This document shows positions 885-39,041 of a stretch of DNA of 64,000 nt, one piece after another. Location of the stretch: contig NZ_CP036348.1 in the NCBI RefSeq assembly GCF_007753095.1, positions 2,976,001 to 3,040,000 on the forward strand, written 5' to 3'. How positions within the stretch are numbered: position 1 is the first letter of the stretch; each line of letters begins with the position of its first letter. This stretch comes from Rosistilla carotiformis. GTDB lineage: Bacteria > Planctomycetota > Planctomycetia > Pirellulales > Pirellulaceae. Both the position numbers and the translations under genes were made by a program. The notes beneath the pieces are model-generated. The model was given only the letters and a program-made list of their open reading frames with translations. It was not told the origin of the DNA and ran no database searches.

Positions 885-1042
885 ATCCGCTTTACTCGAT
901 TTGGTTCGCAAGGGCCGTGAAAATCTCTCCGAGCCCACCCCAATGGCATTTGCGACACTATACTGTTGCTTCGGATTTGGCAGATTGCGGCATATGACCG
1001 TCGCAATCTTCCGATCGGCTTCCCCGTTTCTGACCTACCTCG

Positions 1043-4156: not shown

Positions 4157-4173
4157 CGATTGGATTGACGGGC

Positions 4174-13363: not shown

Positions 13364-13652
13364 CGGCGGGACCTTTTTTGTGCAAAGGGAAAAGACGGGG
13401 CGTTCCAAGTTCGTCGCTGACGATCGCCAATGCAAGCGGGCAACGCCCGATTCTCGATCGCTTCGGAACATTGGGTTCGCCACGGTCACGCGAACAATCG
13501 CCGGGCGAATGGTTGAGCAGATGTAAAACCAGAGTCGCAGCCAAGAATTCTCAGCCGTCAATTCGCGTCGGCGGATTCAACGAGATATGATTTCCCTACC
13601 TTCCAACATTCGTTATCCCTCGCCTCTCCCTCCCGCCGACGAGACTCCTCTC

Positions 13653-15362: not shown

Positions 15363-15382
15363 CCGGCAACATTCATTGCCGG
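15363..15382. promoter_or_regulatory. Perfect inverted repeat before the DUF1559 gene
   Basis: CCGGCAA and TTGCCGG are separated by 6 bases and lie ~33 bp before the chosen ATG. This could be an operator or a hairpin in the 5' leader near the ribosome-binding site (TAGGAA). Confidence 0.35.
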
Positions 15383-15414
15383 ATAGTCCCTTCGTTTTTA
15401 GGAATATGGTCACT

Positions 15415-16407: not shown

Positions 16408-16462
16408 TCGTCTTGCGATGTCAAGCTTGTCCTTCTTTTTTAGGTTGAAAGGTATTGGAATC

Positions 16463-16609
16463 ATGCGTTACTTAGGTTGTCTGTTTTTGGCCGTTCTGTT
16501 GTCCGCTGCGGGGTGTTCGGGGGAATTGGGAGTCGAAGAAACACCGATCGATCCTGCGGCCGAGGCACCCGTTGCCGAAGGGGCTGGAAGCACCAGCGAA
16601 AATCCTTAG
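16463..16609 (+). CDS. Small lipoprotein downstream of DUF1559 gene (48 aa)
   Basis: A 48-residue protein with a lipoprotein signal, MRYLGCLFLAVLLSAAGC, where LSAAGC fits the lipobox. A short acidic tail rich in Glu, Pro and Ala follows. A GAAAGG ribosome-binding site lies about 10 bases before the ATG. Tiny lipoproteins of this type often follow DUF1559 genes in planctomycetes, so the two are probably one operon. The mature peptide, ~30 residues and anchored by lipid, has no visible domain. The longer frame upstream (to 16370) overlaps the DUF1559 gene and lacks a signal peptide. Confidence 0.75.
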   Translation: MRYLGCLFLAVLLSAAGCSGELGVEETPIDPAAEAPVAEGAGSTSENP

Positions 16610-16774
16610 GCGTCGTTTGATTGGGTGAAATCGACCAACCGGCCTGCTACGATGGAGGCCGTCTTCGTTGGCGGGACGGGAATGTGGTAAGCCGGCACTG
16701 CCGCGCTCGTCTCGCCGGAGAACCTCCAATCCGTTCTTACCCGTGTTTCCTTTTCCTCAACCATCGAGCCCATC

Positions 16775-18226
16775 ATGACCTCTCGACAGCGCCGACAGTT
16801 TTTGAAGACCGCAACCGCTGGCGCCATGTTGGGACCGGCAGGTTTGTTGATTCATCAGCGGGCCAACGGAGAGGTTCTGCAAGATACGGGAAGCTTTCCC
16901 GACATCAGCCGCGGCCAAGTCGTCCGAACCAGCGGCAAGCTGGTCGATGCGGCGGCGTTTGAAGAAAACAGCCGGCGGATTCCGGTCGCCGGACACAGGC
17001 AGGTGCTGGTCTGTGGCGGTGGGCCCGCGGGAATCGCGGCGGCTTTGGCGTCAGCTCGCAGCGGAGCGAAGACGCAGCTGTTGGAGCTGGCCGGTTGCCT
17101 TGGCGGCGTTTGGACTGCGGGCATGCTGACGAAGATCCTCGATGCTGGTGGCAAGTCGGGGATTATGAAAGAGATTCTGGGGGCGCTTGCGGCCCAGGGT
17201 AGCGACGTCGCCAAAGATTCCGGCGGGACCGTCTACGATCCCGAACTGGCCAAGGTCGTCCTGGAGGAGATGTGTGTCGACGCGGGCATCGAGATCTGCC
17301 TGCACACGATGGTCGTTGGTGCGGTCGTTAACGACAAGAATCAATTGGTTGCTGTGATCACTGAATCGAAGTCGGGACGTCAGGTTTGGACCGCCGATCG
17401 CTTCATCGATTGCACCGGCGATGGCGATCTGGCTGCCCAAGCCGGCTGCCAGTTCGATCTCGGGTTTGGTGCCGATTGCGTCTGCCAACCGATGTCGATG
17501 ATGGCGTTGATCACCGGTCCAGAACCGGAAGATGTGCAGGAGTTCATTCGCGAGACGGGGGCGTCGGCGAAGCCGCGGTTTCTGAAGTTCATGCGCGATG
17601 CGGGGATCGATCCGTCCTATCGGGCTCCGACGCTGAGGCATCTGCACAGCGGAATCTATTCGATCATGACGAATCACGAATACGGCGTCTCCGCCTTTGA
17701 CGCCGCAGCGATCACCAAGGCGACGATCGAGGGGCGACGCGAAGTGCACGAGATCGTCCGCGGGCTGCGGAAACTCGGCGGCGTCTGGAAAGATTTGGCA
17801 GTCGTTGCGACAGCCGAACAGATTGGCGTTCGCGAGGGGCGACGCGTTAAAGGTCGGTACACGATTACCAGCGAAGATATCGCGACGGGACTGAAACATC
17901 CTCAATCGGTCTGCAACGCGAAGTTCCCGATCGACGTCCATTCGTTGGAGCTGGCGGGGAATCCCGAGGATATCGAAAAGCTGCGAGCGCGTGGCGTGAA
18001 GCGGTACGATATCCCGTATCCATCGTTGGTCGCGGCGGATGTCGATGGGCTGCTGATGGCCGGGCGTTGTATCAGCGGCGACTTCTTCGCCCATTCCAGC
18101 TACCGCGTCACCGGCAACGCGGTTCCGATGGGCGAAGCGGCTGGGCAAGCCGCTGCCGAATCGATCCGCCAAGGCGTGATGCCTCACGAATTGCAGTGGA
18201 AATCGGGCAGCCCACGGCCGAGCTGA
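16775..18226 (+). CDS. Tat-exported FAD-dependent oxidoreductase
   Basis: A 483-residue protein with a Tat signal (SRQRRQFLKTATAGAM). The dinucleotide-binding motif is VLVCGGGPAGIAAALASARSG, followed by a glutamate-type acidic residue in LLELAGCLGG. A second FAD-contact region, FIDCTGDGDLAAQAGC, and a late VDGLLMAGRCISGD are typical of the FAD-dependent oxidoreductase family common in planctomycetes and often linked to carbohydrate or secondary metabolism. The substrate cannot be inferred. The Tat signal implies export with bound FAD. It converges with the small hypothetical gene at 18278-18670. Confidence 0.87.
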   Translation: MTSRQRRQFLKTATAGAMLGPAGLLIHQRANGEVLQDTGSFPDISRGQVVRTSGKLVDAAAFEENSRRIPVAGHRQVLVCGGGPAGIAAALASARSGAKTQLLELAGCLGGVWTAGMLTKILDAGGKSGIMKEILGALAAQGSDVAKDSGGTVYDPELAKVVLEEMCVDAGIEICLHTMVVGAVVNDKNQLVAVITESKSGRQVWTADRFIDCTGDGDLAAQAGCQFDLGFGADCVCQPMSMMALITGPEPEDVQEFIRETGASAKPRFLKFMRDAGIDPSYRAPTLRHLHSGIYSIMTNHEYGVSAFDAAAITKATIEGRREVHEIVRGLRKLGGVWKDLAVVATAEQIGVREGRRVKGRYTITSEDIATGLKHPQSVCNAKFPIDVHSLELAGNPEDIEKLRARGVKRYDIPYPSLVAADVDGLLMAGRCISGDFFAHSSYRVTGNAVPMGEAAGQAAAESIRQGVMPHELQWKSGSPRPS

Positions 18227-18277
18227 TCGCAAGCGATTACGCTCTTCATCGATCGCATTTTTGTGCACGGGGCTGAC

Positions 18278-18808: not shown

Positions 18809-19131
18809 TCGAGGCCGTAGGCCGACACAGGACCTGCCGGCGGCGTAAGTCGCCGGTAGGTCGGTTTTCAAAGCCGCGGATGCGGCGATCGCATAAAGCC
18901 TGTGGCGCGAGCCGCAGGTGCGCAATCGGCAATCAATGCAAAGCCCCGGTCGTGGCGGCAGCAACTACGGATCTGTCGCCCCTTCCGGGGCTCGCGCTAA
19001 AGCATCGCCATCGCGGACCTTTGGCTCACGCCACAGGCAATACGCAGCCGCCGCGTCCACGGCTTCGTGCGTGGTGATCGTCGCGGACGCATTACCCAGG
19101 CCGCCGCTACCGCGGCTTCGTGTTGTGTGGA
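18809..19131. repeat. Block of degenerate intergenic repeats, including double-hairpin copy 2
   Basis: The block opens with the inverse of the element at 7391-7440: GGCCGTAGGCC, then a hairpin at 18832-18861 (ACCTGCCGGCG / CGCCGGTAGGT). Further right, a ~53-bp unit with GGCTTCGTG and TCGCGGAC cores appears twice (GGCTTCGTG at 19061 and 19114), and a partial third TCGCGGAC at 19011. No transposase or other gene was found in it. The block runs right up to the 3' end of the DUF421 gene. Confidence 0.6.
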
Positions 19132-24951: not shown

Positions 24952-26880
24952 CTAGGGCGTGGGGACGTTTCGCGTCGAGGACAAATAGATCGCGCGGCGT
25001 TGGTCGTCGGAGAGGTAGACCGCTTGGTAGCGCTGCGGGGCACCAATGTCTTTGAACATCAGATCCCCTTTCATTAGCAGGTCTTCGGCGCCACGTTGCT
25101 CAAACAGCATCCGACTCTCGGTTGCCGACGTCATGGTCAGTCCGACGCGGCCGGGAAGATTCGATTGGATCGGTCCGGTGATCGTCCTGCGGCTCGGCTG
25201 CTGTGTCGCCAGGATCAGATGGATCCCGCAGGCGCGTCCTTTGGAGCCCAGTCGCGTGATACGGCTTTCGATCGTCTTCTGCTGCTTCGTCGATGCGAGC
25301 ATGATGTCGGCGTATTCGTCGCAAACACAGACGATGCGCGGAACCGGTTTCCCGTGACGATTGATCCATTCGGCGAGCGACGCGCACCCGTCCAAGGACG
25401 CGTAACGTTCCTCCATCTCTTCGATCAATTCATCCAACACCGCGATGATGTCGGCGTCCGCGTCGCCCGGGAAAACGACGGGGCAGCGGAGGTAGGGGGA
25501 ACCTTGCAGATCATGGAACGCCACGCGCTTGGGATCGATGGCGACAAGCTGTAATTGCTCGGGCGTGTTCGTTGCGATCAACCCAGCGACGGCGGTCCGC
25601 AACCATTCGCTCTTGCCGCTGCCCGAGACGCCAGCGACCAACAGATGCGAACAGGTGGTATCCGCCAAGTCGGCGGTCCTCACTTTCCCATCCAGGCCGA
25701 CCCCGACGAGTACCTTGGCACAACCATGCAGCGGATCGGACGCGGGAAGATCGATATCGTCCCATGCGACAAACTGCCGGTCGGGACGTTGAACGTCGAT
25801 GGTGATCGCGGCCCCCGTTTGTATCACGGGTGGTCGATTGCTTTGCAGACGAATCTGCAACAGGTCGCCGATCGACAGGTATTTCTTTGGCGACACGCCG
25901 CGTGCTGGATTGACGGTGAATCGGATAAAGGTCGGTCCGATGATCGGTTCGCCGACAAAGTTCGATTCGCAATCGGCCTCGTTCAACGCCGCCTTCAGCC
26001 GTTTGGCGATCGATTGCACGTCGGCTTCCGTGGTTGGATTCGACGTGGAGACGACTGGTGTGGCGGTTGGCGCTGGTTTGCGTTGCGGCAGCGGCGCGAC
26101 GCGCGGACGGTCGACTCCCGCCAGCTTGCCAATCAACGTTTTCAGTTGTTGCTGCAAGTCGCCGATCTGATCGCCTTCGATCAAACGTTCCGATCGCTTG
26201 GGCAGGAATCCGATCACAGCGAGCGAGCTGTTGCCGGCGTCATTCAACATTTGATGATAGAGTGTCGTCTGACAGAGATCCGCTTGGGGAGCCGTCTTGC
26301 CGAGCTTGTATTCGATCACGCAGCGACGTCCTCCCGGCAAGCTCAGGACCGAATCGGCGACGCCCTTCAGGATCACGGGCTGCGTCCAGGCTGCGTCGGT
26401 CAATTCCAAACGCAGTGGCACCTCGGCCTGAAACCAATTTGCAAGCTCGCAGGGATTGAAACGTTTGCCGTCGCGAAGCTGGCGTTGGCGGTGATCCCAA
26501 AACAGTTCGGCCAACCAGTGGGTCGCTTCGTTGACCGCGGCCCAAAGGTTCATCACCGCGTCGCCACGTCCATGCAGGGCGGCGGCATTCCCAACCAGAA
26601 ACGGTCCCAGTTCCCGCCGATATCCGAAGTCGCGCAGCTCCGCGGACCAGTCGTCGACTGACGCCCCGCTGAAGATCGTCGATAATTCGGATAGGCTGCT
26701 GTTCAGCAGAGACGCGATCAAGCGATGGAATGCCGATCCTAATTCACAACAGGATGGACTGCCGGTACCACTGGAAGGGTCGGCGAGATAGATCTGCTGG
26801 CGTACGTCGCTGACCGAAATCTCGACGCCACTTCCGGCGGCTTCCCGCGAAAACGATGGGGGCTGTAATCTTTGATTCAT
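24952..26880 (-). CDS. RecB/Cas4-like nuclease fused to a soluble FtsK-type DNA motor
   Basis: A 642-residue protein with two parts. Residues ~45-215 carry all the marks of a RecB-type PD-(D/E)XK nuclease: GSAFHRL with His52, GVAD with Asp176, VIEYK with Glu190 and Lys192, and QTTLY (204-208). Residues ~285-385 resemble the FtsK beta domain (VGEPIIGPTFIRFTVNPARG). The motor follows: Walker A GVSGSGKS at 417-424, IDPKRVAFHDL at 448-458, Walker B IVCVCDEYAD with Asp521/Glu522, and GIHLILATQQPSRRTITGPI. There are no transmembrane helices and no C-terminal KOPS-reading gamma domain, unlike chromosomal FtsK. The ATG lies one base after the stop of the ATPase gene. Cytosolic DNA translocation coupled to cleavage is the inferred activity. 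Confidence 0.85.
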   Translation of the reverse strand: MNQRLQPPSFSREAAGSGVEISVSDVRQQIYLADPSSGTGSPSCCELGSAFHRLIASLLNSSLSELSTIFSGASVDDWSAELRDFGYRRELGPFLVGNAAALHGRGDAVMNLWAAVNEATHWLAELFWDHRQRQLRDGKRFNPCELANWFQAEVPLRLELTDAAWTQPVILKGVADSVLSLPGGRRCVIEYKLGKTAPQADLCQTTLYHQMLNDAGNSSLAVIGFLPKRSERLIEGDQIGDLQQQLKTLIGKLAGVDRPRVAPLPQRKPAPTATPVVSTSNPTTEADVQSIAKRLKAALNEADCESNFVGEPIIGPTFIRFTVNPARGVSPKKYLSIGDLLQIRLQSNRPPVIQTGAAITIDVQRPDRQFVAWDDIDLPASDPLHGCAKVLVGVGLDGKVRTADLADTTCSHLLVAGVSGSGKSEWLRTAVAGLIATNTPEQLQLVAIDPKRVAFHDLQGSPYLRCPVVFPGDADADIIAVLDELIEEMEERYASLDGCASLAEWINRHGKPVPRIVCVCDEYADIMLASTKQQKTIESRITRLGSKGRACGIHLILATQQPSRRTITGPIQSNLPGRVGLTMTSATESRMLFEQRGAEDLLMKGDLMFKDIGAPQRYQAVYLSDDQRRAIYLSSTRNVPTP

Positions 26881-26881
26881 C

Positions 26882-28903
26882 TCAAGAGTTATCGCTGTGT
26901 TGGGGTGAATCGATTTCGTTATCCGATGCCACGGGGTCATCCACTCGAAAGACGACCGCCGCGTCTCCGTGAATCACTCCAATCCGGTCTGCTGCGAGGC
27001 CGGCGAGTTCTTTCACGCGTTCCTGGTCGATGCCGGTGGAGGCTGCGATGGCATCGACCGATGTGATCGGGGCGGATGCAAGGCATTCGAGGACCGCGTC
27101 GATATCGTTGTCGTCGGGCGTCGGATCGTCGTCGATCCAGCCGGGACGCTGCGGAGTGCGGAATTCATCGATCCATTCACGGACGACAGAATCGAGGTGA
27201 TTGGACAACCACTGCCGGACCGTCGACGCTCCCACCGCATCCCCTGCGACCGTGAGATCTCCACAGGTTGCGTCGGCGATCAAAGAACGGACGGCATCGA
27301 GCACCGCCATAATCTCACGCGTCGGACGCAGCAGCACGCCTTCCTCTTTGGTCAATTGATCCAAACGATCACGGGTGGTTTGGGCACCCGGGGAGATCGG
27401 CAATCGTCCGTCGCGAATCAGCACCAGTTTGTGCAATCCAAACGCCTCGCGATTTTGAATCAAACGCCGCAATTGGGCCGCCAAGCTCGTCATGTTCGGC
27501 TGATTGCAGAGCGCCACGCCGACCCGTGCTTCCTCTTCGGGGCCGACCAGTACCATTTCGATATCGTTCTGCGCATTGTGTGGCCCCGTCGGATACTCGG
27601 CGGTCCACCCCGCATCAACGATCCGGAGGAGATTGGGAAGCGTTGCCGCGATCAATTCGTTGGTCGCTTCGGGCGTCTGGGTGCGGAGCGCTTGCTCGAT
27701 CCGTTGGTCGAAGACTTCGGCCAAGGCGGCTTCGGGGCCAACCGGCGCTGGGGGGCTTGGCTTTTTGGAGGCCAGTTCATCGAAGCGAATCGCTGCTTGG
27801 TGCAGCAGTTCACGCGGCGTTAAACGCTGTGCGAACAAGGCTTCCTCGTCACCGAACGGCCATTGCGGATCGTTTCCGGCGGCCTTGGCTGTCACCGACA
27901 GAGCGGCAACTCGGGAACGGATGATCTGCCGCATCTGGGACGCATCCAGTTTCTGCAGCGCCGTCTGGCCGGCAGTGGTCATCCGCGGACGGTCTTGCCC
28001 ACGCACCTCGTTGTCGGCGAAGTTGGCCAACACGCACGAGATCACCGCCACGGTGGTTTCATCGGTGAGGTCAGCGATCGCGCGGGCGAGGTACCAGACG
28101 GGCCGACGCGTTGGATCCTCGACCTCGATCGCTTCGATTTGATCGAAACAGAAGACGATCGGAATCTCGGAGCCGGCGATCTGGCAAAGCGATTTCACCG
28201 CTTCAAACGCATCGTCTTCGTTGTCGGGAGCGTAATGACTTGGATCGACGTTGCCAAACAATGCCCGGAAACCCGCTTCGTTGACCAGCCCGCCGCCGAG
28301 GTACGCGCGGACATGACGTCGATGTTGTTGCCGAATAAACCATTCGATCACATGAGCAAAGTCGTCGCGAAGACTGATCTGACCCGCGAGTTCGTACCAG
28401 TGATCGACAAGTTCTTCGATCCGCGCTTGGCGAAAGTGATTCCACCACAGTGCGAGGTCCGCGCTGCCATCAAGCGGTTTGGCCAGTTGTTTCGCGAGCA
28501 CATGGTCTAGTTGCGTGAGCCCGTCGGGCATCGGGCGCATCAGATCGGTCACCAATTCGGAACGGATCTTACGCCAGATCCGCCCCGAAGCGGTTCGCAT
28601 CCTCAAATAGACGAAGATCTGCCAGTCATCTTCGACGTCGGGATACTTTTTCTTCGTATCGGTGAGGTGTTCGTGCAAGCGGGCCAGCAGATGGGTCTTT
28701 CCGCTGCCCTGTTCGCCATGAATCAGGACCGACGCGCTTCGCTGTTCGTTGCGCACGATCCGCACGGCGTCGAGACATTTGGAAAAGACGTCGGCATGAA
28801 TCTCCGGCACATCGGCCGATGCCCCACGCCAAGCATCGGGAACGATGCTTCCAAGAAACGGATTGGGCATCGACGGATCGATTTTCAATTTTGCGGCAGC
28901 CAT
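26882..28903 (-). CDS. Large P-loop ATPase of a three-gene nuclease/motor cassette
   Basis: A 673-residue protein. The Walker A motif is GEQGSGKT at residues 63-70, preceded by a helical lead-in (VPEIHADVFSKCLDAVRIVR) typical of AAA+/STAND ATPases. A plausible Walker B is PIVFCFDQIEAIE (248-260), followed by TTVAVISCVLANF as sensor-1-like strand. Residues ~320-440 are helical. A second alpha/beta region follows at ~445-540, and residues ~600-655 look like a winged helix (DAIAASTGIDQERVKELAG). Orc1/Cdc6-like and BREX-type ATPases share this layout, but I could not assign it to a named family. It starts 3 bases after the winged-helix gene stop and ends 1 base before the nuclease/motor gene, so the three are one operon. 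Confidence 0.75.
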   Translation of the reverse strand: MAAAKLKIDPSMPNPFLGSIVPDAWRGASADVPEIHADVFSKCLDAVRIVRNEQRSASVLIHGEQGSGKTHLLARLHEHLTDTKKKYPDVEDDWQIFVYLRMRTASGRIWRKIRSELVTDLMRPMPDGLTQLDHVLAKQLAKPLDGSADLALWWNHFRQARIEELVDHWYELAGQISLRDDFAHVIEWFIRQQHRRHVRAYLGGGLVNEAGFRALFGNVDPSHYAPDNEDDAFEAVKSLCQIAGSEIPIVFCFDQIEAIEVEDPTRRPVWYLARAIADLTDETTVAVISCVLANFADNEVRGQDRPRMTTAGQTALQKLDASQMRQIIRSRVAALSVTAKAAGNDPQWPFGDEEALFAQRLTPRELLHQAAIRFDELASKKPSPPAPVGPEAALAEVFDQRIEQALRTQTPEATNELIAATLPNLLRIVDAGWTAEYPTGPHNAQNDIEMVLVGPEEEARVGVALCNQPNMTSLAAQLRRLIQNREAFGLHKLVLIRDGRLPISPGAQTTRDRLDQLTKEEGVLLRPTREIMAVLDAVRSLIADATCGDLTVAGDAVGASTVRQWLSNHLDSVVREWIDEFRTPQRPGWIDDDPTPDDNDIDAVLECLASAPITSVDAIAASTGIDQERVKELAGLAADRIGVIHGDAAVVFRVDDPVASDNEIDSPQHSDNS

Positions 28904-28906
28904 TCG

Positions 28907-29776
28907 TTACCTCCTGACGACAAGCATGTCATAAACTTTTCCATCGCCACGAAGCATGCGGGCCTCGCGCTCCGCAGCGCTTAACGCCCCTGGATCGGGG
29001 TGCGTTGTCAGATCGATTTGCGCTTCGTCTTCCAGTTGTCGGATCGCCGCGTCGAACGAAGGGCCTGCCAATTTGAACTCCATCGCTCGACGCAATTCGG
29101 CGATCGATACGATCACTCCCGCCGGCGACGGACTGGTGGACATTTGAGCGATCGTTTCCATCACAAGGGCTGCATCGGACAGGTCGGTTTCGGTCGGCGA
29201 CGTCGAACGTGGCGCGGATGGCTCGGGCGGCAAGATCGACGCTCGCACCGCGTCGGGGCTGATCGAGCAGCGTTTGGCAATTTGTGCGATCGCGTTCTCG
29301 AGCATCGCTTGAGGTCCGATCGGGCGAGCGGAATATCGCAAGGCTTGGCTTCCCAGGAAGCGTCCAACATGCAATTGGCCCACCGTGGCCAATTGGTTGA
29401 TAAAGTCGCCCAGCTGCTTGACGTTCATATCTTTCAGTCGCGCCCGGCATCGGCTGCTGAGATCGCTCTTCGTGCCGATCTGCTTTTCCGCTTCGGAAGT
29501 GATCACGCGCGTCGCGTAATGATCGAGCGATCGATCCCAAAATCGATCTGCTTTCCCGCGATAGGGAGCAAAGCGATGGATGGCCTGTTGCTGGACCAGT
29601 CGATCCAGTTGTTGTTGGATGGCTTGAGGATCTCGTTGATCCTGCGCAGAAAACGCTCGGCACAGCTCGGCCACCGTCACCGGGGCATCGGCCGATGCCA
29701 ACGCTTGAATCAACTCTTGATTCGGCATCTCCACGTTTGTGGCGCTGCCGTTGGAAAGAACCGCGGACTCGAGCAT
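28907..29776 (-). CDS. Winged-helix-like protein, first gene of the cassette
   Basis: A 289-residue protein I do not recognise. The N-terminal ~60 residues (PVTVAELCRAF ... QQQLDRLVQQQAIHRFAPYRG) read as a winged-helix domain with helix-turn-helix and wing. The last ~75 residues (VSIAELRRAMEF ... AAIRQLEDEAQIDL) may be a second one. A helical, Ser/Pro-rich region links them. GGAG lies 9 bases before the ATG at 29776; an in-frame TTG at 29791 is less likely. It could load the motor on DNA, bridge DNA and ATPase, or regulate the operon. Its 3-base spacing to the ATPase gene ties it functionally to the downstream pair. Confidence 0.7.
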   Translation of the reverse strand: MLESAVLSNGSATNVEMPNQELIQALASADAPVTVAELCRAFSAQDQRDPQAIQQQLDRLVQQQAIHRFAPYRGKADRFWDRSLDHYATRVITSEAEKQIGTKSDLSSRCRARLKDMNVKQLGDFINQLATVGQLHVGRFLGSQALRYSARPIGPQAMLENAIAQIAKRCSISPDAVRASILPPEPSAPRSTSPTETDLSDAALVMETIAQMSTSPSPAGVIVSIAELRRAMEFKLAGPSFDAAIRQLEDEAQIDLTTHPDPGALSAAEREARMLRGDGKVYDMLVVRR

Positions 29777-30165
29777 CAAAATGAACTCCAATCGGGACAG
29801 GTAGATATGAGGATCGTACCACAGGTGGATGGGGGGTGGAACTCGTCATGAAAAGCTCCCTAGGTTTCGCAACTTTGCAGACGTCGGTCGGCGGTCGCTG
29901 TCAGTCGCGGCGTCGCCATCCGCCGCTGAGACGAGCGCGCTCGTCCGCGTCGGCGAGGACGGTTTGGAGGAGATGCGCGGCTTTTGTGGCCGCGGATTGG
30001 CGATCCTCCGACTTAACTGCAACAATCGACCCAGTTCCTCGGACGGCGGATGTTGTTTGGCTTTGAAGTTCGCTTCATAATAGGTAGGCGTCTTGCGTTG
30101 GCGTACGATACATTCGTTTTCGAAAGGCCCTCCGAGCGGCCTGTCGCGTTGGGATCAGCGATTTC
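29777..30165. other. Gap between the cassette and the cytochrome gene; open minus-strand frame without start
   Basis: Both flanking genes point away, so promoters for both should lie here. A minus-strand frame is open for ~102 codons between stops at 30155-30157 and 29846-29848, and its conceptual product (…YYEANFKAKQHPPSEEL…) reads like protein. It has no ATG; the first start-like codons are two TTGs at 30025 and 30022, preceded by GAGGAA. It could be a short upstream cassette gene with a TTG start, a remnant, or chance. A plus-strand frame near 29829-30080 has poor composition. Confidence 0.35.
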
Positions 30166-31092
30166 ATGAAAGCTTTAAAAATAGTTTGCTTGCTGGGGCT
30201 GATCGTGGCCCCCGTGTTTGCCAAGGAACGCCGCGCCGCGCCGCCTCGGTTTGGTGCCGATTCGTTTCGTGGCGTCTTTTTCGAGGACCTCTCCGAATCG
30301 GTCGCCGCGTCGCGACCGAGTGTTCAAGCGTTGCGCGGGATCATGCCTCGGGCAGCCGGTCCGGCTGCTGGCGAGCCACAAGAGAGCGAGGATGCGGGAG
30401 GCGGTTGGGGCAAGCTGGCAAGCGCTCAGAGTATCGAGGATGAGATCAAGCGACAGAAGCTGAAGTTTGACGCGGATGTGTCGCAACCTGGCGCTTTTAA
30501 GAGTGGCGGGTATGTGAACGCCCGGACGGAATTGTCGATCCTGGCGACCTTATTCGGCGTGGTGACGCTGTACGAAGGGGATATTCGTTGGAAAGAGCAA
30601 GCCGAGGCGGCGCGCAATCTGTTAGCGCGGACGGCGGGCAATTGCAATTCAGGCTCGATTCAGGTGTTCAACGAGTGCAAGACGCGGAAACAGGATCTGG
30701 ACGATCTGCTGGGGGGCGGTTCCCTCTCGGGCCCGCCAGCGAAGGCGGAATCGGATTGGCCGATGATCGCCGATCGCTCGGTTTTGATGGGATATTTGGA
30801 GACGCTTTCGAAGGAAGAATTGCCCAATTTGACAAACGATGACACAGGGGTCAAAGAGACTCCGGATAAAGTCAAACAATTCAGCGACATGGTCGCGTTG
30901 GTCGGCAATGTATTGATTCAAGAAGGGATGGACGAGGCCGACGACGAGGAATATGTCAAACTCTCCAAACAGATGCTCGACGCGGCGATCTTGGCTGGCC
31001 AGGCCGCGAAGCAGGGAGATGCCGATGGGGCTCGGAAAGCGGTTGGCATGATCAATCAATCTTGTGATGCCTGTCACGAGCAATACCGCTAA
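30166..31092 (+). CDS. Secreted cytochrome c'-like (class II) protein
   Basis: A 308-residue protein with a signal peptide (MKALKIVCLLGLIVAPVFA). It ends in SCDACHEQYR: a CxxCH haem site followed at once by the basic residue and C-terminus, as in class II cytochromes c', where the haem motif lies on the last helix. The body is helical, with paired segments around ARTELSILATLFGVVTLYEG and KLSKQMLDAAILAGQAAKQG. It is over twice the length of a normal cytochrome c' (~130 residues), so it may hold two four-helix units, only one of which binds haem. It could be an electron carrier or a gas/ligand sensor in the periplasm. The next gene follows after 55 bp. Confidence 0.75.
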   Translation: MKALKIVCLLGLIVAPVFAKERRAAPPRFGADSFRGVFFEDLSESVAASRPSVQALRGIMPRAAGPAAGEPQESEDAGGGWGKLASAQSIEDEIKRQKLKFDADVSQPGAFKSGGYVNARTELSILATLFGVVTLYEGDIRWKEQAEAARNLLARTAGNCNSGSIQVFNECKTRKQDLDDLLGGGSLSGPPAKAESDWPMIADRSVLMGYLETLSKEELPNLTNDDTGVKETPDKVKQFSDMVALVGNVLIQEGMDEADDEEYVKLSKQMLDAAILAGQAAKQGDADGARKAVGMINQSCDACHEQYR

Positions 31093-31147
31093 CCGCCACG
31101 TCGCAGCGCGTCGGGGCACCGCCAACGCATCCATCCCTGGGTATTCG

Positions 31148-32035
31148 ATGGGAATTCGATTCCAATGCCATGAGTGTCAACATCGTTTAAACGTCAAAGA
31201 GTTCTTGGCGGGCAAACGGGGAAAGTGCCCCAACTGCCAAACGATGTTTCGGATCCCGATGGGCGATCAAGCGTGGTCGATGCCTGTGGATTCGGATCTG
31301 ACAGACAGCCACGATTCATCCGTCCCGGAGGAATCTCCACAGCTCGCCGCGTATCGTTCCGAAACGCTCGCCGCGGCGGAATCGGCTGCCGTTTCGACGC
31401 CTTCCCACGCAACCGCACCCGACGGTCCCAAGCCGTCCAGCAAGGTCGCGACGGCCCAGCATCCGGCACCGGAATCCGTGCCTCAGGCCGATCCGTCCGC
31501 CGCCACGAAATCGGATCCGCCAAGTGAAACAGCTCCGGCCGAATTGCCTCCGGATCAATCGCAGCACGAGACTTCGCAAGACGAATCGTCACCGCTGGCG
31601 ATGCCCGTGGACGTCGTTTGGTATGTCCGGCCGCCCAGCGGTGGGCAATATGGACCTGCGGGCGGCGCGCTGATGCAGCAGTGGATTCAGGAGCATCGAG
31701 TGGTGCCCGGATCTTTGGTGTGGCGGGATGGATGGTCGCAATGGCGCGAAGCCGAAGATGTGTTTGGTCCAAATTTTGGCACGTCGGGGATTGCCGATAT
31801 CGATCTCAACGCCGATTTGCCCGAAGCGCCCCTCGGTTCGCAGGGAGGCATCGATCTGGGCCGATCGACGTCCGGGGTGCACCTGGAACAAGAACCAAAG
31901 CTGACGGAATTCGAACGGCGGCAATTGGCCAAACGCAAACGGCGGACGCGGATGATCGCGATGCTGGCCGCCGTGAGTCTGTTTTTAATCGTGGTGATCA
32001 TCCTGGTGATCGTTGTCAAAAGTGGCGACGCGTGA
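31148..32035 (+). CDS. Zinc-ribbon/GYF-domain membrane protein
   Basis: A 295-residue protein. The N-terminus has a zinc ribbon with Cys7, Cys10, Cys27 and Cys30 (CHEC ... CPNC). A Ser/Pro/Ala-rich disordered stretch of ~110 residues follows. A GYF_2/DUF4339 domain then starts VVWYVRPPSGGQYGPAGG and ends LVWRDGWSQWREAEDVFG. A single transmembrane helix (MIAMLAAVSLFLIVVIILVIVV) lies near the C-terminus, leaving a 6-residue tail. GYF domains usually bind proline-rich peptides; here the partner is unknown. Most of the protein should be cytosolic and tail-anchored. Its TGA overlaps an ATG of the next gene (TGATG at 32033-32037). Confidence 0.82.
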   Translation: MGIRFQCHECQHRLNVKEFLAGKRGKCPNCQTMFRIPMGDQAWSMPVDSDLTDSHDSSVPEESPQLAAYRSETLAAAESAAVSTPSHATAPDGPKPSSKVATAQHPAPESVPQADPSAATKSDPPSETAPAELPPDQSQHETSQDESSPLAMPVDVVWYVRPPSGGQYGPAGGALMQQWIQEHRVVPGSLVWRDGWSQWREAEDVFGPNFGTSGIADIDLNADLPEAPLGSQGGIDLGRSTSGVHLEQEPKLTEFERRQLAKRKRRTRMIAMLAAVSLFLIVVIILVIVVKSGDA

Positions 32036-32100
32036 TGCGGTCGTTTTCGACCGATTGGATGCCTGGTAAGCCGCACAACCTTTTGCAATTGAGTGTCTCA

Positions 32101-33456
32101 ATGTTTCGATGTTTTGCGTTGTTGTGGGTGATGTTCTGTAGTAGCGTCGTGGCGTCGGAACCGGCGGAGCTGCGCTTGGCGACCTTTTCGGCTGACATCA
32201 CGATTCCGCTGGGGCATCGTTGCATGGGCGTTTTGCCGACGAAGGCGTTGCGCATCGAAGATCCGTTGGAAGCCCGCGGCCTGGTGCTGTTGGGATCGGG
32301 CCCGCCGGTGGTGCTTGTTGCATTGGATTGGTGCGAAGTTCGCAACGGTGCGTATGATCAATGGCGCGATCAGATCGCCCAGGCGGCGAACACCGTCCGC
32401 AATCGAGTGCTTGTTTGTTCGCTGCATCAGCACGACGCACCGGTTACCGACAGCGGTGCCCAAGCGCTGTTGGACCGTGTCGGCATGCAGGGCGAACTGT
32501 ACGATGTCGCCTTTCACGCGGATTGCATCGCTCGCGTGGCCGAAGCGATTCGCAAGGCGATCCCGTTGGCTCAGCCGCTGACACACGTTGCCGCCAGTCA
32601 AGCCAAGGTGGACCAGATCGCGTCGAACCGCAGGGTCGAGTATCCCGATGGCCGGGTCGGTTACGACCGGGGCAGTCGGATGAGTCCCGATTCGCCAGCG
32701 GCGCTGGCTGACGCCGGAGAGATCGATCCGTTTCTCAAAACGATCCACTTCTACAACCAGGATCGCGAACTGGCGGTGATCTCATCGTATGCCACGCATC
32801 CGATGAGCTATTACGGGCAAGGGGGCGTGACCGCCGACTTTGTTGGCATGGCTCGACGGCGACGCCAATTGGATACCGAAGGGAGCATGCAGATCTACAC
32901 CACCGGCTGCAGCGGCGACGTGACGGCTGGAAAATACAACGATGGAGCGGCGGCGACGCGTGCGGTTTTGGCAGATCGGCTGTATCAAGCGATGGTTCAG
33001 TCGGCGGCGGTGGCCCAACGCCAACCGATTTCCGAATACCGTTTCCGATGCGAAACGTTGCAGCTGCCGTTTCACGAAGGGGATGAGTTCACGCGCGAGG
33101 CGATGACCGCGGTATTGGAAGACGAACAGGCCAGCGAGAAGAATCGGATTTTGGCGGCGATGGGGCTGAGTTCGTTGGATCGTTTGGAGCGTCAGCCGAT
33201 CGATTTGCCCTGTCTCGATTTAGGGATTGCTCAGATCGTGTTGTTGCCAGGGGAATCGTTTGTCGGATACCAATTGATGGCGCAACGCTTGCATCCGGAT
33301 TCATTTGTGATGGCGATCGGATTCGGCGAAAGCTGGACGGGATATATCCCTACGAAACGGGCCTTTGACGAAGGCTTTGGCCACAGCTGGCGGTGGGTCG
33401 GCCGCGGTTGCGAGGCGATCATTCGCCAACAGCTGACGCGGGTGTTGGCGGAATAA
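32101..33456 (+). CDS. Secreted neutral/alkaline ceramidase-like protein
   Basis: A 451-residue protein with a signal peptide (FRCFALLWVMFCSSVVA). The fold seen in FSADITIPLGH, LVLLGSGPPVVLVALDWCEV and VCSLHQHDAP resembles the N-terminal domain of neutral ceramidases, including the zinc-binding HxH segment and a later SSYATHPMSYYG. Planctomycetes have many such proteins, usually called neutral/alkaline non-lysosomal ceramidase-like; amidase activity on sphingolipid-type substrates is not proven. The C-terminal immunoglobulin-like domain of true ceramidases seems absent. The start may instead be the ATG at 32035, which overlaps the stop of the GYF gene and would lengthen the signal peptide by 22 residues. 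Confidence 0.72.
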   Translation: MFRCFALLWVMFCSSVVASEPAELRLATFSADITIPLGHRCMGVLPTKALRIEDPLEARGLVLLGSGPPVVLVALDWCEVRNGAYDQWRDQIAQAANTVRNRVLVCSLHQHDAPVTDSGAQALLDRVGMQGELYDVAFHADCIARVAEAIRKAIPLAQPLTHVAASQAKVDQIASNRRVEYPDGRVGYDRGSRMSPDSPAALADAGEIDPFLKTIHFYNQDRELAVISSYATHPMSYYGQGGVTADFVGMARRRRQLDTEGSMQIYTTGCSGDVTAGKYNDGAAATRAVLADRLYQAMVQSAAVAQRQPISEYRFRCETLQLPFHEGDEFTREAMTAVLEDEQASEKNRILAAMGLSSLDRLERQPIDLPCLDLGIAQIVLLPGESFVGYQLMAQRLHPDSFVMAIGFGESWTGYIPTKRAFDEGFGHSWRWVGRGCEAIIRQQLTRVLAE

Positions 33457-33678
33457 CCCGCCAATGGGAGGCAAATTGCACGCCCAGTTGGCCTCGGTTG
33501 CCCGTTATGATCCTAGCCGCAAGGCTTCTTTATGGTAGAATCCTCGGCGTGAACCTATGTCTGCGCGTTCGTTGCGTTCCGCTACCGGTGGCCGTTGGGG
33601 CGTAAGCGACGCGGTCGGACGATGCACGCAGCATCCTATCTCCCTTTTGTTTGAATCTGTGCTTTATCGGTTTGATTG

Positions 33679-35391
33679 ATGAACGAATCCAACGCTGAAA
33701 ACCTCGAAAACGCTGTTCCCCCGCAATCCTCCACAGCCGATGCACAGCCTCCCATCGATGCTGGTGACGCCGCGACTCCATCGCCCGCGCCCCTAGCGGC
33801 TGACGATGCGACGTTGTCCGACGCAGCGGCCGCACTTGCGGCGGCCGCCGATTCGCCGGCTCCCGCATCGGGAAGCGGTCCGTTAGCCGGTCGGCCCAGC
33901 GGCCCGTTGGCGCGGCGTTCACCTGGGCATCAACCCAGTTCGCCGCCTCCATCGGCCGGCCGTCCCGGATCACCGTTGCCCGTTCCACAACGGCCTAAAA
34001 AGCCGGCGGCCCCCGCCGCGGAAGGAGCTGCAACGGAGACGGGCGGCGAAGCGGCGAAGCCCGAGAAACCGAAGCACGTTGGCAAAGAGAAACATCCGCC
34101 ACGCGGCAAACAGATCGCTCCGCCACCAACTCCGCGGATTATGGTCCCCAGCAAACGCGCCCCTTTGTCGGACGACTTGGAAGAAATGTTAGCCCGCGAA
34201 TTGGCCGGCTCGGGACTTGAAGAGATTCTTGGCGGCCAAGCGGGCATGCCGATGCGCGATGCTTTGGTCGAAGGCCAACGCGTGCAAGCGAAAGTGATCA
34301 AGAAGAATGTCGATGCCGTGTTTGTCTCGTTGGGTGGTCCCGACGAAGGGGCGGTCGCATTTGAACAATTCAAAGAGGAACCTGAAATCGGTGCTTCGGT
34401 CGAAGTCATCGTGCGTGGGTTCAACAACGACGACGGGATGTACATGTTGGCGCTGCCTGGTCAAGCGCTCGACGCCAGCGACTGGGATGAGTTAGAAGAA
34501 GGAGACGTCGTCGAAGCGTATGTCGAATCGGTCTGTAACGGCGGTGTCGACGTCAAGGTCGGTTCGCTGCGCGGCTTCATTCCGATCAGCCAATTGTCGG
34601 AGTTCCGCATTGAAGACGCGGCGGAGTTCGTTGACAAAAAGCTGATGTGCGTTGTCAACGAGTGCAATCCACGCCGCAAGAACTTGGTGCTCAGCCACCG
34701 TGCGATCCTCGAACGCGAACGCGAGGAACGCCGCCAAGAACAGATGGCCAAGATCGCTGTGGGCGATGTCTTGGAAGGAACCGTCCGCAACGTCTTGGAC
34801 TTTGGCGCGTTTGTCGATCTCGGGGGCGTCGAAGGGCTGATCCACATCAGCAAGCTCAGCTGGGATCGAATCAAGCATCCTAGTGAAGTGATCGAGACGG
34901 GCCAAAAGGTGAAGGTCCGGATCGACAAGATCGATGAGGCCACCGGCAAGATCGGACTTTCCTATCGAGATCTGCTGGAACAACCTTGGGACAACATCGA
35001 CAGCAATTTCCCTGTCGGTTCGACGGTCACCGGTACCGTCACGCGGACCGCCGATTTCGGGGCCTTTGTTCGTTTGGGAACCGGCATCGAAGGGCTGATC
35101 CACATTTCCGAACTCGCCCATCATCGCGTCTTTAAGGTCGACAACGTGGTCAAAGTCGACGATGTGATCGAGGTGAAGATTCTCTCGGTCGACAAAGATT
35201 CGCAGCGGATCGGATTGTCGCTGAAGGCGACTCAGGTGAAACCGCAGACCGAGGAAGAGAAGGCGAAAGAGGCGGCTGAGGCAATCGATGAACCGGCACC
35301 CGAGCCGTACATCAAGAAACGCCACGTCGGTCCGCTCAAGGGTGGCAAAGATGCGGATGCCGGCGGAGCCAAGTTTGGTTTGAAGTGGTAG
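33679..35391 (+). CDS. rpsA: Ribosomal protein S1-type RNA-binding protein with disordered N-terminus
   Basis: A 570-residue protein. The first ~160 residues are low-complexity, rich in Ala, Pro, Ser and Gly, ending in a basic KPEKPKHVGKEKHPPRGK. Four S1 domains follow at ~196-262, 275-345, 360-433 and 446-518. Domains 3 and 4 have the full VLDFGAFVDLGGVEGLIHIS-like signature; domains 1 and 2 are more diverged. E. coli S1 has six domains and no such tail, so this is a planctomycete variant that may serve in mRNA binding on the ribosome or as another S1-type regulator. The ATG at 33679 follows a TTG that would add one residue. A hairpin shared with pheA follows the stop. Confidence 0.85.
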   Translation: MNESNAENLENAVPPQSSTADAQPPIDAGDAATPSPAPLAADDATLSDAAAALAAAADSPAPASGSGPLAGRPSGPLARRSPGHQPSSPPPSAGRPGSPLPVPQRPKKPAAPAAEGAATETGGEAAKPEKPKHVGKEKHPPRGKQIAPPPTPRIMVPSKRAPLSDDLEEMLARELAGSGLEEILGGQAGMPMRDALVEGQRVQAKVIKKNVDAVFVSLGGPDEGAVAFEQFKEEPEIGASVEVIVRGFNNDDGMYMLALPGQALDASDWDELEEGDVVEAYVESVCNGGVDVKVGSLRGFIPISQLSEFRIEDAAEFVDKKLMCVVNECNPRRKNLVLSHRAILEREREERRQEQMAKIAVGDVLEGTVRNVLDFGAFVDLGGVEGLIHISKLSWDRIKHPSEVIETGQKVKVRIDKIDEATGKIGLSYRDLLEQPWDNIDSNFPVGSTVTGTVTRTADFGAFVRLGTGIEGLIHISELAHHRVFKVDNVVKVDDVIEVKILSVDKDSQRIGLSLKATQVKPQTEEEKAKEAAEAIDEPAPEPYIKKRHVGPLKGGKDADAGGAKFGLKW

Positions 35392-35426
35392 AAGGGGCGA
35401 TGCCGTTTGAGACTGAGCTCAGGGAA

Positions 35427-35447
35427 CTGCCGCCACCATGGCGGCAG
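35427..35447. terminator. Perfect hairpin between convergent rpsA and pheA
   Basis: CTGCCGCC and GGCGGCAG form a perfect 8-bp stem around a 5-base loop. It lies 35 bp after the rpsA stop and 1 bp from the pheA stop, so it could end transcription from both sides. No T-run is present on the rpsA side. Confidence 0.55.
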
Positions 35448-35448
35448 A

Positions 35449-36501
35449 TCAGCCTTCGGTTCGGTTGCTGTCTTTGGGGTACGACCCCAGGATATCGCGG
35501 CGAACCGTAAAAGCTTTCAGATCTTCAATCGCAGCTTTCACTGGGGCGTCCTGTTTGTGCCCCTCCAATTCGACGAAGAACAGATATTCATTGGGCCCGG
35601 CGGGCATCGGATAGGATTCGATCCAGGTTAGATTCAGGTTATGGGTTTTGAAGACGTTCATTGCATCGGCCAAGGCGCCGGGGCGATGGATGATTTGCAG
35701 GACCAAAGCCGTCTTGTCGTTGCCACTGGAATCGGGTTCATGGGCTCCCAGTACAGCAAATCGTGTGACGTTGTTGGGGTTGTCTTCGATGCTGGCCGCG
35801 ATCACGTTTAAGCCGTACTCACGCCCGGCCGCTTCGCTAGCGATTGCGGCAACCCCTGGTTTTTCGGCCGCCAGTTTGGCCGCCGCGGCGGTGCTGGAGA
35901 GCTCTTTCAGCTGCGCCGCCGGCATGTGTTGGGCCAACCAGCCTCGGCATTGCGATAGCGCTTGCGGCTTGCTGTAAATTTCAACGATCTGTTCGCGCGG
36001 CGTGCGGCTCAATAGATAGTGGTGGATTGGCAGCAGCACTTCGCCACAGATATTGACGGGGGTTTGCACGAACATCCCCAGCGTATCGACCACGCGGCCG
36101 TCGGTTGAATTTTCGACGGGAACGATGCCCATCGCGGCTTGGCCCCGACCCACCGCATCAAAAACGGCGGCGATGGTTGTTTCTGGGGTGAACGATGCGG
36201 CGTCGCCAAAGTATTTGATCGCGGCCAGATGGCTGTAGCTGTGCTGAGGGCCCAGGTAAGCGATCCGGCAGGTTTCCAGTTCCGCATTGGACAGACTGGC
36301 GACGTGCCGCAGCAGCGTTCGCAAGCGATCGGGATCGATCCGATGCGTGGCAGCGCTTTGCTTGACCGTCGATTCGATCCGCGCGCTGACATCTGCTGGC
36401 GATTCCGCAGCGTTTTCCTGACGCAGGATTTCCATGCGTTGCCCGACTAGGTCAAGGATGGCTCGATCGATCTCGTTGAGGCGTTCAGGGTCTCGCGGCA
36501 T
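35449..36501 (-). CDS. pheA: Prephenate dehydratase with chorismate-mutase-like N-terminus (P-protein)
   Basis: A 350-residue protein making phenylpyruvate for phenylalanine. Residues ~1-85 resemble an AroQ chorismate mutase (LNEIDRAILDLVGQRMEI), but the conserved lysine of the usual GxxK segment is not evident, so mutase activity may be weak or lost. The prephenate dehydratase domain follows with IAYLGPQHSYSHLAA, PVENSTDGRV, STAAAAKLAA and the catalytic NVTRFAVL. The C-terminal ACT domain contains NLTWIESYPMP, the ESRP-like site that binds phenylalanine for feedback inhibition. The ATG at 36501 fits the family N-terminus; the frame stays open to 36564. It converges on rpsA. Confidence 0.93.
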   Translation of the reverse strand: MPRDPERLNEIDRAILDLVGQRMEILRQENAAESPADVSARIESTVKQSAATHRIDPDRLRTLLRHVASLSNAELETCRIAYLGPQHSYSHLAAIKYFGDAASFTPETTIAAVFDAVGRGQAAMGIVPVENSTDGRVVDTLGMFVQTPVNICGEVLLPIHHYLLSRTPREQIVEIYSKPQALSQCRGWLAQHMPAAQLKELSSTAAAAKLAAEKPGVAAIASEAAGREYGLNVIAASIEDNPNNVTRFAVLGAHEPDSSGNDKTALVLQIIHRPGALADAMNVFKTHNLNLTWIESYPMPAGPNEYLFFVELEGHKQDAPVKAAIEDLKAFTVRRDILGSYPKDSNRTEG

Positions 36502-36748
36502 CGTGGATTGGCTCTTCGAGGGTGTCAGGATGGCTGAGTTGCCGGTGCTCCAACGACACGGCAAAATTCATACGGGCGAAGTCTGTCATTTTGACCGGCA
36601 ACGCATTGCTCATCGAAACCGAAACGGGCTCAAAAGTCAAACTGGAGCCGTGACGATGACGAATATTAGGCGGTTGGAACCGCAAAACGGTGCCTGATGT
36701 ACCGAAACGTACAGGAATTGCAGTTTTTTGGAAGCCGTGGTTTGGTTC

Positions 36749-36763
36749 TGGCACGCTCTTTGC
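36749..36763 (+). promoter_or_regulatory. Sigma-54 (RpoN) promoter upstream of dnaK
   Basis: TGGCACG, 4 bases, then TTGC is an exact match to the -24/-12 consensus. The GG and GC dinucleotides are spaced 10 bases apart as required. Transcription would start near 36775, leaving a leader of ~130 bases. No CIRCE-type inverted repeat was found in the 36502-36905 gap. No bound activator site could be identified; the rest of the gap shows no gene. Confidence 0.7.
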
Positions 36764-36905
36764 TTTTGTTCACATTCGTTCGCGTGACGGCCAAACATGT
36801 CGCCGACCGAACGAGACGCGGCACGACATGCAATGCTCCACAGGGCGAGCTTTGTCGCACAACGAATAGACTAAAATTCTGACGATACGACTGGAGGAGA
36901 GATCC

Positions 36906-38834
36906 ATGGCACAAGGCGAAAAAATTATTGGTATCGACTTGGGGACCACCAACAGCGTCGTTGCCATCATGGAAGGTAACGATCCCAAGGTGATTCCCAA
37001 TGCGGAAGGCAACCGTTTAACTCCCAGCGTGGTGGCGTTCACCGACAAAGCGGAAACGATCGTCGGCGAACCGGCGCGTCGCCAAGCGGTCACCAACCCA
37101 ACGCGAACGATCTATTCGGCGAAGCGTTTCATGGGCCGCCGGCACAACGAAGTTCATTCCGAAGAGAAGATCGTCCCATACGAAGTGACCGGTGCGGAAT
37201 CCGACTTCGTCAAAATCAAGGTGGGCGACAAGGAATACACGCCGCAAGAAATCTCGGCAAAGGTGCTTCGTAAGCTGAAGGAAGCTGCCGAATCCTACTT
37301 GGGGCACAAGGTCAACAAGGCGGTCATCACCGTTCCCGCGTACTTCAATGACAGCCAACGACAAGCCACCAAAGATGCGGGTGACATCGCGGGTCTGGAA
37401 GTGATGCGGATCATCAACGAACCGACGGCTGCGGCGATCGCGTACGGACTGGATAAGAAGAAGGATGAAAAGATCATCGTCTTCGATCTGGGGGGTGGTA
37501 CGTTCGACGTGTCGGTTCTGGAAGTTGCCGATTCGGGCGACGACGAGAGTTCGACGCGCGTCTTCCAAGTGGTCAGCACCAGTGGCGATACGCACCTCGG
37601 TGGCGACGACTTCGATGAAGCTTTGATCGGTTACGTTGCCAGCGAATTCAAGAAAGATCACGCAATCGATCTGCGCAGCGACCCCATGGCACTGCAGCGT
37701 TTGCAAGAAGCGTGCGAAAAAGCAAAGAAAGAATTGAGCACGCTGCCAGAAACCGACATCAACCTGCCATTTATCACGATGGATCAAACCGGGCCCAAGC
37801 ACCTGACGATGAAGGTCACGCGGGCGAAGTTTGAAGAGTTGATTGCCGATCTGATCCAACGTTGCCGTAAGCCTGTATTGCAGGCACTGGAAGACGCCGG
37901 GATGAAGCCTAGCGACATCGACGAGGTCGTCTTGGTGGGTGGTAGCACGCGTGTTCCTAAGGTTCGCGAAGTTGTTAAAGAGATCTTCGGCAAAGACCCT
38001 CACCAGGGTGTGAACCCCGATGAAGTGGTTGCGATCGGTGCTGCGATCCAAGGTAGCGTTCTGGCGGGTGATCGTACCGACGTGTTGCTGTTGGATGTCT
38101 GCCCATTGACCCTGGGGATCGAAACCGAAGGTGGTGTGATGACACCACTGGTCGAACGCAACACGACGATTCCGGTGGAGAAGAAGAATACGTTCAGCAC
38201 CGCTGCGGACAACCAAACCGCGGTCACCGTCCGCGTTTTCCAAGGTGAACGCAAGATGGCGGCGCAGAATCGATTGTTGGGCGACTTCAACCTCGAAGGG
38301 ATTCCTCCACAACCACGCGGTATGCCTCAGATCGAGGTCAAGTTTGACATCGACCAGAACGGTATTTTGAATGTCAGCGCGAAGGACCTCAATTCCGGTA
38401 AAGAAGCCAAGGTGCAGATCGAACAATCGGGCGGTCTGGACGACTCCGAAATCGAACGCATGAAGAAGGACGCCGAAGAGCATGCCGATGAAGATCGCAA
38501 GCTGTTCGAATTGGCCGAAGCACGTAACAAGGCGAACAGCCTCATCCACGAATCGGAAAAGCAGCTCAAGGATAACGAAGAGAAGCTGACCGATGCGGAC
38601 AAGGAGCCCATGAACGCGGTGATCAAGAAGGTGCGCGACGCGGTTGCTGGCGACGATACCGCGGCGATTGTTTCGGCGACCAGCGAATTGGAGCAAGCTT
38701 GGCAAGCGTTCAGCAAAGTGCTTTATGAAAAAGCGGGAGCTGAAGGCGCGGCGGCGGATGGTGCATCAGCGGAACCAGCACCAAGTGCGGATGACGATGC
38801 CATCGATGCGGAGTTCGAAGTGAAAGACAAGTAA
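36906..38834 (+). CDS. dnaK: Hsp70 chaperone DnaK
   Basis: A 642-residue protein of typical length. The nucleotide-binding domain starts [18 protein letters not shown] and contains the conserved [27 protein letters not shown] and [14 protein letters not shown]. The substrate-binding domain begins near [17 protein letters not shown]. The helical lid and an acidic tail ([14 protein letters not shown]) follow. It folds and protects proteins with DnaJ and GrpE, neither of which is in this window. A strong GGAGGAGAG ribosome-binding site precedes the ATG. Control by sigma-54 is suggested by the promoter at 36749-36763. clpB follows, but a stable hairpin lies between. Confidence 0.98.
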
Positions 38835-38852
38835 ACGTCTTCAACGATGATT

Positions 38853-38888
38853 GATCACCGGGCCGGTCCGATGGGCTGGCCGGTGATC
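38853..38888 (+). terminator. Stable hairpin after dnaK
   Basis: GATCACCGG and CCGGTGATC form a perfect 9-bp stem that extends by a bulged inner stem (GCCGG/CTGGC). It starts 19 bp after the dnaK stop and is strong enough to end transcription before clpB, although there is no T-run. Confidence 0.6.
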
Positions 38889-39041
38889 GCTACGCGGGCC
38901 ACAGACGATTATCCCAACACGCGACAGTGACCGATTGGTTGCAAGCGTGTCTTCAACGGCTGTGGCTTTTTCGTGCGCGGTCCGCAGTTTTTTTGAATCT
39001 TACAGGCATGTTAGGCAGTATCAGAAACAGGAGTTTGAATC

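Follow-up and report, generated by a model that had tools for sequence, protein, structure and literature searches.

The question raised by a 4.8-kb stretch of the Rosistilla carotiformis chromosome (NZ_CP036348.1) is what a compact operon joining an Orc/Cdc6-type ATPase to a putative nuclease-motor fusion does for its planctomycete host. The operon comprises three intact minus-strand genes within positions 24952-29776 of the window, the 64,000-nucleotide piece of DNA analyzed here (positions 2976001-3040000 of a 7.44-Mb single-contig genome), and its intergenic spacers are 3 and 1 bases long. Our assessment is that it encodes an Orc/CDC6-type HerA/FtsK capture machine acting on invading DNA, a reading to which, taken whole, we assign a probability of about 0.6; the family assignment taken alone is considerably safer, and we regard it as very probable. 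This class is already known as a computational prediction, treated in a 2024 survey of HerA/FtsK capture systems that is reportedly the work of Rakesh, Aravind and Krishnan, and, judged from sequence, the operon fits its testable features.

A conserved three-gene unit

The sequence-only reading of this DNA took the genes for one tight minus-strand unit, and this description holds: the open reading frames (ORFs) were confirmed, and a scan for relatives using one genome per species (84,980 species) returned 51 loci, 41 of which carry all three genes in the same order on one strand. A congener also has all three proteins, with identities of 76, 91 and 86% for genes 1, 2 and 3. The corresponding ratios of nonsynonymous to synonymous substitution rates (dN/dS) are 0.24, 0.10 and 0.10 in one genome pair of the same genus, a MATE pair having been excluded from that comparison for its wrong frame in one genome. 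The congener copy, these dN/dS values and the order kept among related loci argue together that the unit did not arise by chance.

The third gene exceeds 600 amino acids in 35 of the 41 ordered loci; of the six shorter ones, two meet contig ends (L094, L099) and four are truncated or interrupted (L101, L125, L126, L128). A full-length third gene completes the set in Planctomycetota, Acidobacteriota, Myxococcota, Verrucomicrobiota and Cyanobacteria; at the desulfobacterial loci and at the Chromatiales locus the set is not whole. At L126, L127 and L128 (about 13450-15750) the nuclease-FtsK gene stops after its nuclease part and is followed by minus-strand genes; the one scanned, at L126, has HSDR_N and ParA-like domains.

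Domain composition of the three proteins

None of the three proteins matched NCBIfam above its cut-offs, and their assignments (Table 1) rest on Pfam, profile comparisons and structure models. By fold the second protein is an Orc/Cdc6-type AAA+ ATPase (Pfam AAA_16, E 3.5e-9). Of the earlier description as an AAA+/STAND-type ATPase, the AAA+ part thus stands and the STAND identity is rejected. Its Walker A and B motifs read GEQGSGKTH and FCFDQIE; Gln follows the Walker B Asp in 31/31 aligned ATPases and R364 is invariant, and PADLOC gives matches at the P-loop level only. The middle domain, modeled as a helix, three strands, a helix and a strand, is probably an inactive restriction-endonuclease (REase)-like domain, and the (D/E)xK motif is absent from it. 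Its sequence profile retrieved nothing relevant among solved structures. The C-terminal winged helix appears in the model as helix 596-610, a strand, helices 616-623 and 627-636 and two strands, with weak sequence support (DprA_WH 0.004, below cut-off).

The third protein combines FtsK_SpoIIIE (1e-32), PDDEXK_1 (1e-4) and FtsK_alpha, the last below the Pfam cut-off here (0.005) and above it in two cyanobacterial relatives. We compared 41 nuclease-FtsK sequences, all longer than 550 amino acids and including that of the window (L100 comes from the same genome as L038, and L108 from the same genome as L037). Of these, 39 have the complete nuclease residue set of Table 1, with E or D at position 190, L112 and L138 being the two that do not, and 40 keep the Walker A lysine of FtsK. 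At L039 only the profile alignment identified the nuclease, which was missed when the nuclease part of the window protein served as a direct query. Nuclease and motor active sites are intact, and the nuclease is predicted to be active. In an FtsK tree, a branch supported at 96/98 parts 32 system rows and two fusions from 35 housekeeping FtsKs; this tree is midpoint-rooted, takes its housekeeping set from Planctomycetota only, has its single SspH on a very long branch, includes one gene twice among the 32 rows, as L007 and as L039, and was built after 16 near-copy or fragmentary loci had been left out.

Gene 1 encodes a protein with no Pfam match above cut-off, and winged helices were assigned to it because its AlphaFold2 model (mean predicted local distance difference test, pLDDT, 86.8; predicted template modeling score, pTM, 0.56) contains three helix-helix-helix-strand-strand units. 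Its profile also matches the tandem winged helices of SelB (E 3e-6), and the invariant or nearly invariant columns of a 29-sequence alignment fall in winged helix 3. A 71-residue unit is tandemly duplicated in the winged-helix genes of L093 and L094 (84% over 50 residues; 2/50 proteins), detected by direct scan where a self-BLAST for repeats was negative, so that the number of winged helices can change. With these domains, the earlier outline of a DNA reader, a switch ATPase and a motor-nuclease is borne out, the winged helices being taken from the model.

Table 1. Genes and domains of the operon, in window coordinates
Feature	Coordinates	Strand	Extent	Evidence or key residues
Gene 1: triple winged-helix DNA-binding protein (putative)	28907..29776	-	289 aa
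Winged helix 1	29537..29731	-	residues 16-80	AlphaFold2 model
Winged helix 2	29330..29527	-	residues 84-149	AlphaFold2 model
Winged helix 3	28916..29176	-	residues 201-287	AlphaFold2 model and alignment
Gene 2: Orc/Cdc6-type AAA+ ATPase	26882..28903	-	673 aa
Orc/Cdc6 AAA+ core	27755..28879	-	residues 9-383	Fold evidence
Probable inactive REase-like domain	27263..27673	-	residues 411-547	Secondary structure in model
C-terminal winged helix of ATPase	26939..27118	-	residues 596-655	Structure model
Gene 3: RecB-type nuclease fused to soluble FtsK alpha and motor	24952..26880	-	642 aa
PD-(D/E)XK nuclease domain	26095..26826	-	residues 19-262	H52, D176, E190, K192, Q204, Y208
FtsK alpha and motor	25006..26043	-	residues 280-625	Walker A G417/K423, Walker B D521/E522, sensor Q560

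Relationship to described systems

Orc/CDC6 HerA/FtsK capture gene sets were described from sequence in Nucleic Acids Res. in 2024 (PMC10853773), where their anti-invader role is itself a prediction. As given in the main text of that survey, an Orc/CDC6 ATPase, whose C-terminal winged helix is preceded by an inserted inactive REase, is combined with an active REase and HerA/FtsK, one with FtsK-alpha; a subset adds a separate, fast-evolving protein with 2-4 winged helices, other sets fuse a 3'-5' exonuclease to FtsK, and two REase families are named, one shared with AbiJ (PMC10853773). The present operon offers counterparts to these features: an Orc/CDC6-family AAA+ ATPase with a C-terminal winged helix; a nuclease predicted to be active; an FtsK motor with an alpha domain, below the Pfam cut-off in the window protein; a separate three-winged-helix protein that evolves faster than its partners (dN/dS 0.24 vs 0.10); and exonuclease-fused relatives in Cyanobacteria. 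For the inactive REase, the segment ahead of the ATPase winged helix is a candidate counterpart, the order of its secondary structure elements in the model fitting that domain. A difference is that the operon joins its nuclease, of RecB type (PDDEXK_1), to the motor in one protein, and the strings "planctomycet" and "cyanobacter" do not occur in the main text of the survey (PMC10853773). The earlier designation of the system as undescribed therefore has to be given up: with this gene set in print, all three genes largely fall within a named system, though that system is a prediction.

BREX-Related Capture systems, the subject of a 2026 paper in the same vein (PMC12839542), share HerA/FtsK, an Orc/Cdc6 ATPase and a winged-helix DNA-binding module with the operon. 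They comprise seven components, however, with PglZ, GNAT and TGT among them, and these last three were not recognised in the proteins here. The PglZ and methylase that accompany BrxC in BREX had no match in the three proteins, nor in ten neighbours scanned with PADLOC. For the three proteins PADLOC gave only a chance-level match to DndF and named no system beyond P-loop or FtsK matches, in agreement with the earlier view that neither BREX nor Dnd is represented. DndFGH resembles the operon in its division of labour among an ATPase, a triple winged-helix protein and a translocase-nuclease; DndH, however, is described as a multidomain protein with an inactive methylase, a REase and HerA/FtsK (PMC10853773), whereas the gene 3 protein consists of nuclease and FtsK only.

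SspFGH likewise has three genes, a Walker-A ATPase and an FtsK-like C-terminus, but is paired with SspBCD (PMC8092258). That the operon is a degenerate SspFGH or DndFGH restriction module needing a phosphorothioation partner is highly improbable. The PADLOC SspH model does match the FtsK end of gene 3 (E 1.7e-41); at E 1e-60, however, it matches 104/199 planctomycete genomes, and all but one of the matches listed are confined to its FtsK end. A true SspFGH locus, compared directly, shares only the FtsK end (E 5e-28) and the P-loop region. With an hhalign probability of 0.2 for SspG and an alignment to SspF of only 113 columns around the P-loop, membership in SspFGH was rejected, as the sequence-only reading had supposed. 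No DNA-modification gene was recognised among the ten window neighbours scanned.

Sporadic distribution and possible mobility

The distribution of the ATPase is patchy, as had been anticipated. It is found in 4/79 related genomes (own included), in 6/240 genomes of the family at E 1e-30, with the genes linked rather than universal and scattered, and in 22/392 genomes of the phylum at E 0.001, or 2/392 (own included) at E <1e-100. The operon is present in two of the three species of the genus compared. In the sister species that does not have it (G002), sequences flanking the copy in the other relative (G001, 28252-41551 and 53166-55540) stand 80 bases apart, which indicates that an 11.6-kb segment holding the three genes and neighbours is missing there.

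A dispersed repeat of about 230 bases (window 18867-19103; G001 46737-46948, 47010-47226 and 53162-53385; G002 43085-43317; more copies in the genus) lies next to the operon in G001 and, in G002, at the junction that has no operon. The operon block is located elsewhere in the window genome: the sequence to its right, from 30048 on, has a different location in both relatives, the window flanks 1-5750 and 30048-36000 are adjacent but inverted in G002, and segments of the intervening 24 kb align at several further sites in the two. At 15424-15600 the window also contains about 165 bases of sequence that recur dozens of times in similar form in both relatives (75-85% identity), which we take to be probably the conserved start of prepilin-like (DUF1559) genes. 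Six planctomycete loci have no neighbour genes in common except one prepilin-like paralogue pair. The ATPase is 69-70% identical to those of three Rhodopirellula-like genomes, against 55-57% for one chromosomal protein, a single-protein comparison that does not decide on horizontal transfer.

These rearrangements at the operon copies in this genus, with their repeats, could also be read as marks of a mobile element that carries the genes as its own weapon or partition unit against competing elements and is kept by the host in passing only. One copy, which has IS21, an SNF2 helicase and a SWIM protein as neighbours, is on the Pseudanabaena plasmid pPSE7367.01, typed as conjugative. This accords with such an origin, as does the association with ParA described below. 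Yet this is the sole plasmid found with ATPase queries in 72,556 records, the window has no tRNA (integrases were not searched for), and the operon is kept at one place in Nostoc. We therefore consider this origin distinctly unlikely.

Predicted mechanism and its alternatives

If the operon is a capture machine, its parts suggest a division of labour. The triple winged helix of gene 1 and the winged helix of the ATPase would bind DNA. The Orc/Cdc6-like ATPase, to judge by its fold, would be an ATP-switched loader or clamp, as Orc/Cdc6 is at replication origins, which assembles on the bound DNA and loads or opens the FtsK ring. The FtsK hexamer would pump double-stranded DNA, and the fused RecB-type nuclease ahead of it may be coupled so as to cut the DNA as it passes. 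The most likely target would be invading DNA: plasmids, conjugating DNA or phage DNA. A more specific version, in which the logic of replication initiation is reused to destroy DNA independently of modification and the loader places an FtsK ring with its own RecB-type nuclease on chosen DNA instead of a replicative helicase, is put forward tentatively, as a possibility less probable than its failure.

Several results weigh against the operon being a capture machine directed at invaders. The full set was not shown at 10/51 loci: for L095, L112, L113, L115 and L119 the sequence stops at the ATPase or next to it, and the other five (L106, L117, L127, L134, L139) leave spare sequence on one side or both. 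The correlation between the distance matrices of the three proteins, which speaks for one machine (0.94-0.98 over 35 loci, 0.89-0.91 over 23 non-cyanobacterial ones, 0/2000 shuffles as high), is inflated by shared descent. No relative was found in 50,697 phage records or confirmed in two scans of viral contigs, and carriage by phages has no support there. Ten window neighbours gave no PADLOC match at E 0.001. At related loci, the 25 commonest of 90 matched PADLOC families each match 3 of 111 neighbour proteins, mostly to PD-T4-6, which we presume to be a kinase model. This sample (200-900 amino acids, within 4.3 kb, from 29 loci) consists of the nearest 114 of 160 candidates, less three dropped as first genes of divergent modules. 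The siting in a defence island that the sequence-only reading proposed to check is not supported, with no sign of enrichment among the 111, counted without a control set, and none in the ten. Finally, we place the operon in a known but predicted class because the published gene-set features fit and no experimental test of Orc/CDC6-type capture systems was found in the open literature, which here includes few subscription papers or preprints.

The same surroundings, free of defence genes in the PADLOC scans, bear on a housekeeping role, in which an accessory motor-nuclease would process chromosome ends, dimers or breaks with the Orc-like ATPase as its loader. Its logic would be that of end resection by HerA-NurA, a pair in which a translocase is coupled to a nuclease, though that pair has a different motor branch and a different nuclease and is not known to include an Orc-like ATPase. 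The motor here is of the cellular FtsK kind and carries FtsK alpha, and the genes are under purifying selection. In Nostoc the operon has a fixed chromosomal site at five loci, next to an rplI-like gene, and no fewer than four of these loci have a dnaB-like gene too (names judged from sequence); a ParA gene downstream in nine cyanobacterial loci suggests segregation; the fixed place and the ParA gene fit a chromosomal role. In one cyanobacterial order the ATPase has strong matches (best E <1e-100) in 66/148 genomes and weak ones in 32 more. Against this stand the absence of the ATPase from most relatives, the sister species that does without the operon, the plasmid-borne copy and the neighbours that differ at each of the six planctomycete loci, and on balance we judge a housekeeping function unlikely.

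A capture machine acting on invading DNA accordingly remains our preferred reading. Compact, with intact active sites and a sister species that has no operon, this locus is well suited to a first experiment on the loading of FtsK-nuclease rings onto foreign DNA by Orc-like ATPases.

Variant forms among relatives

The fusions and the loader arrays of Cyanobacteria give hints of how the parts contact one another. In Minicystis rosea, ATPase, nuclease and FtsK form a single 1314-amino-acid protein; this genome also has two more distant ATPase relatives of 1056-1087 amino acids (L160 7144-10407, L161 5264-8434), each preceded by a protein of about 310-350 amino acids. Two planctomycete genomes of one genus encode an ATPase-FtsK fusion without the nuclease (L040 6970-12128, L041 10891-16008), directly followed by a protein-kinase gene (Pkinase 2e-36 at L040), possibly a swapped effector; under the modification-free version of the mechanism these would be effector-swapped forms of the machine. 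Both cyanobacterial third proteins scanned (2/2) carry an extra 3'-5' exonuclease domain (PF01612, 1.5e-28 and 7e-29), and the shorter ones in L158 and L162 begin at the nuclease. Tandem ATPases occur in 24 of the 66 strong-match cyanobacterial genomes, among the matches listed, and the array at L158 (7689-17881) reads winged helix, ATPase, ATPase, winged helix, ATPase, nuclease-FtsK. Under that same tentative version, such multi-loader arrays with one motor-nuclease would make the loader the swappable reader of targets. At L039 a 995-amino-acid protein (15248-18235) adjoins the divergent module of G271; it looks like a primase-helicase-phospholipase-D fusion, possibly akin to TOTE conflict systems.

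Sequence context of the operon

Gene 1 starts at the ATG at 29776, with an alternative TTG start possible upstream at 29791; for gene 3 the start at 26880 is preferred over that of the ORF list at 26940, which falls within the ATPase gene. Promoter-like sites number 1 against 1.3 expected and terminator-like sites 9 against 5.6 expected. The neighbours in the window encode glycosyltransferases, a MATE transporter, a cytochrome c' protein, a GYF-domain protein and an S1-domain protein.
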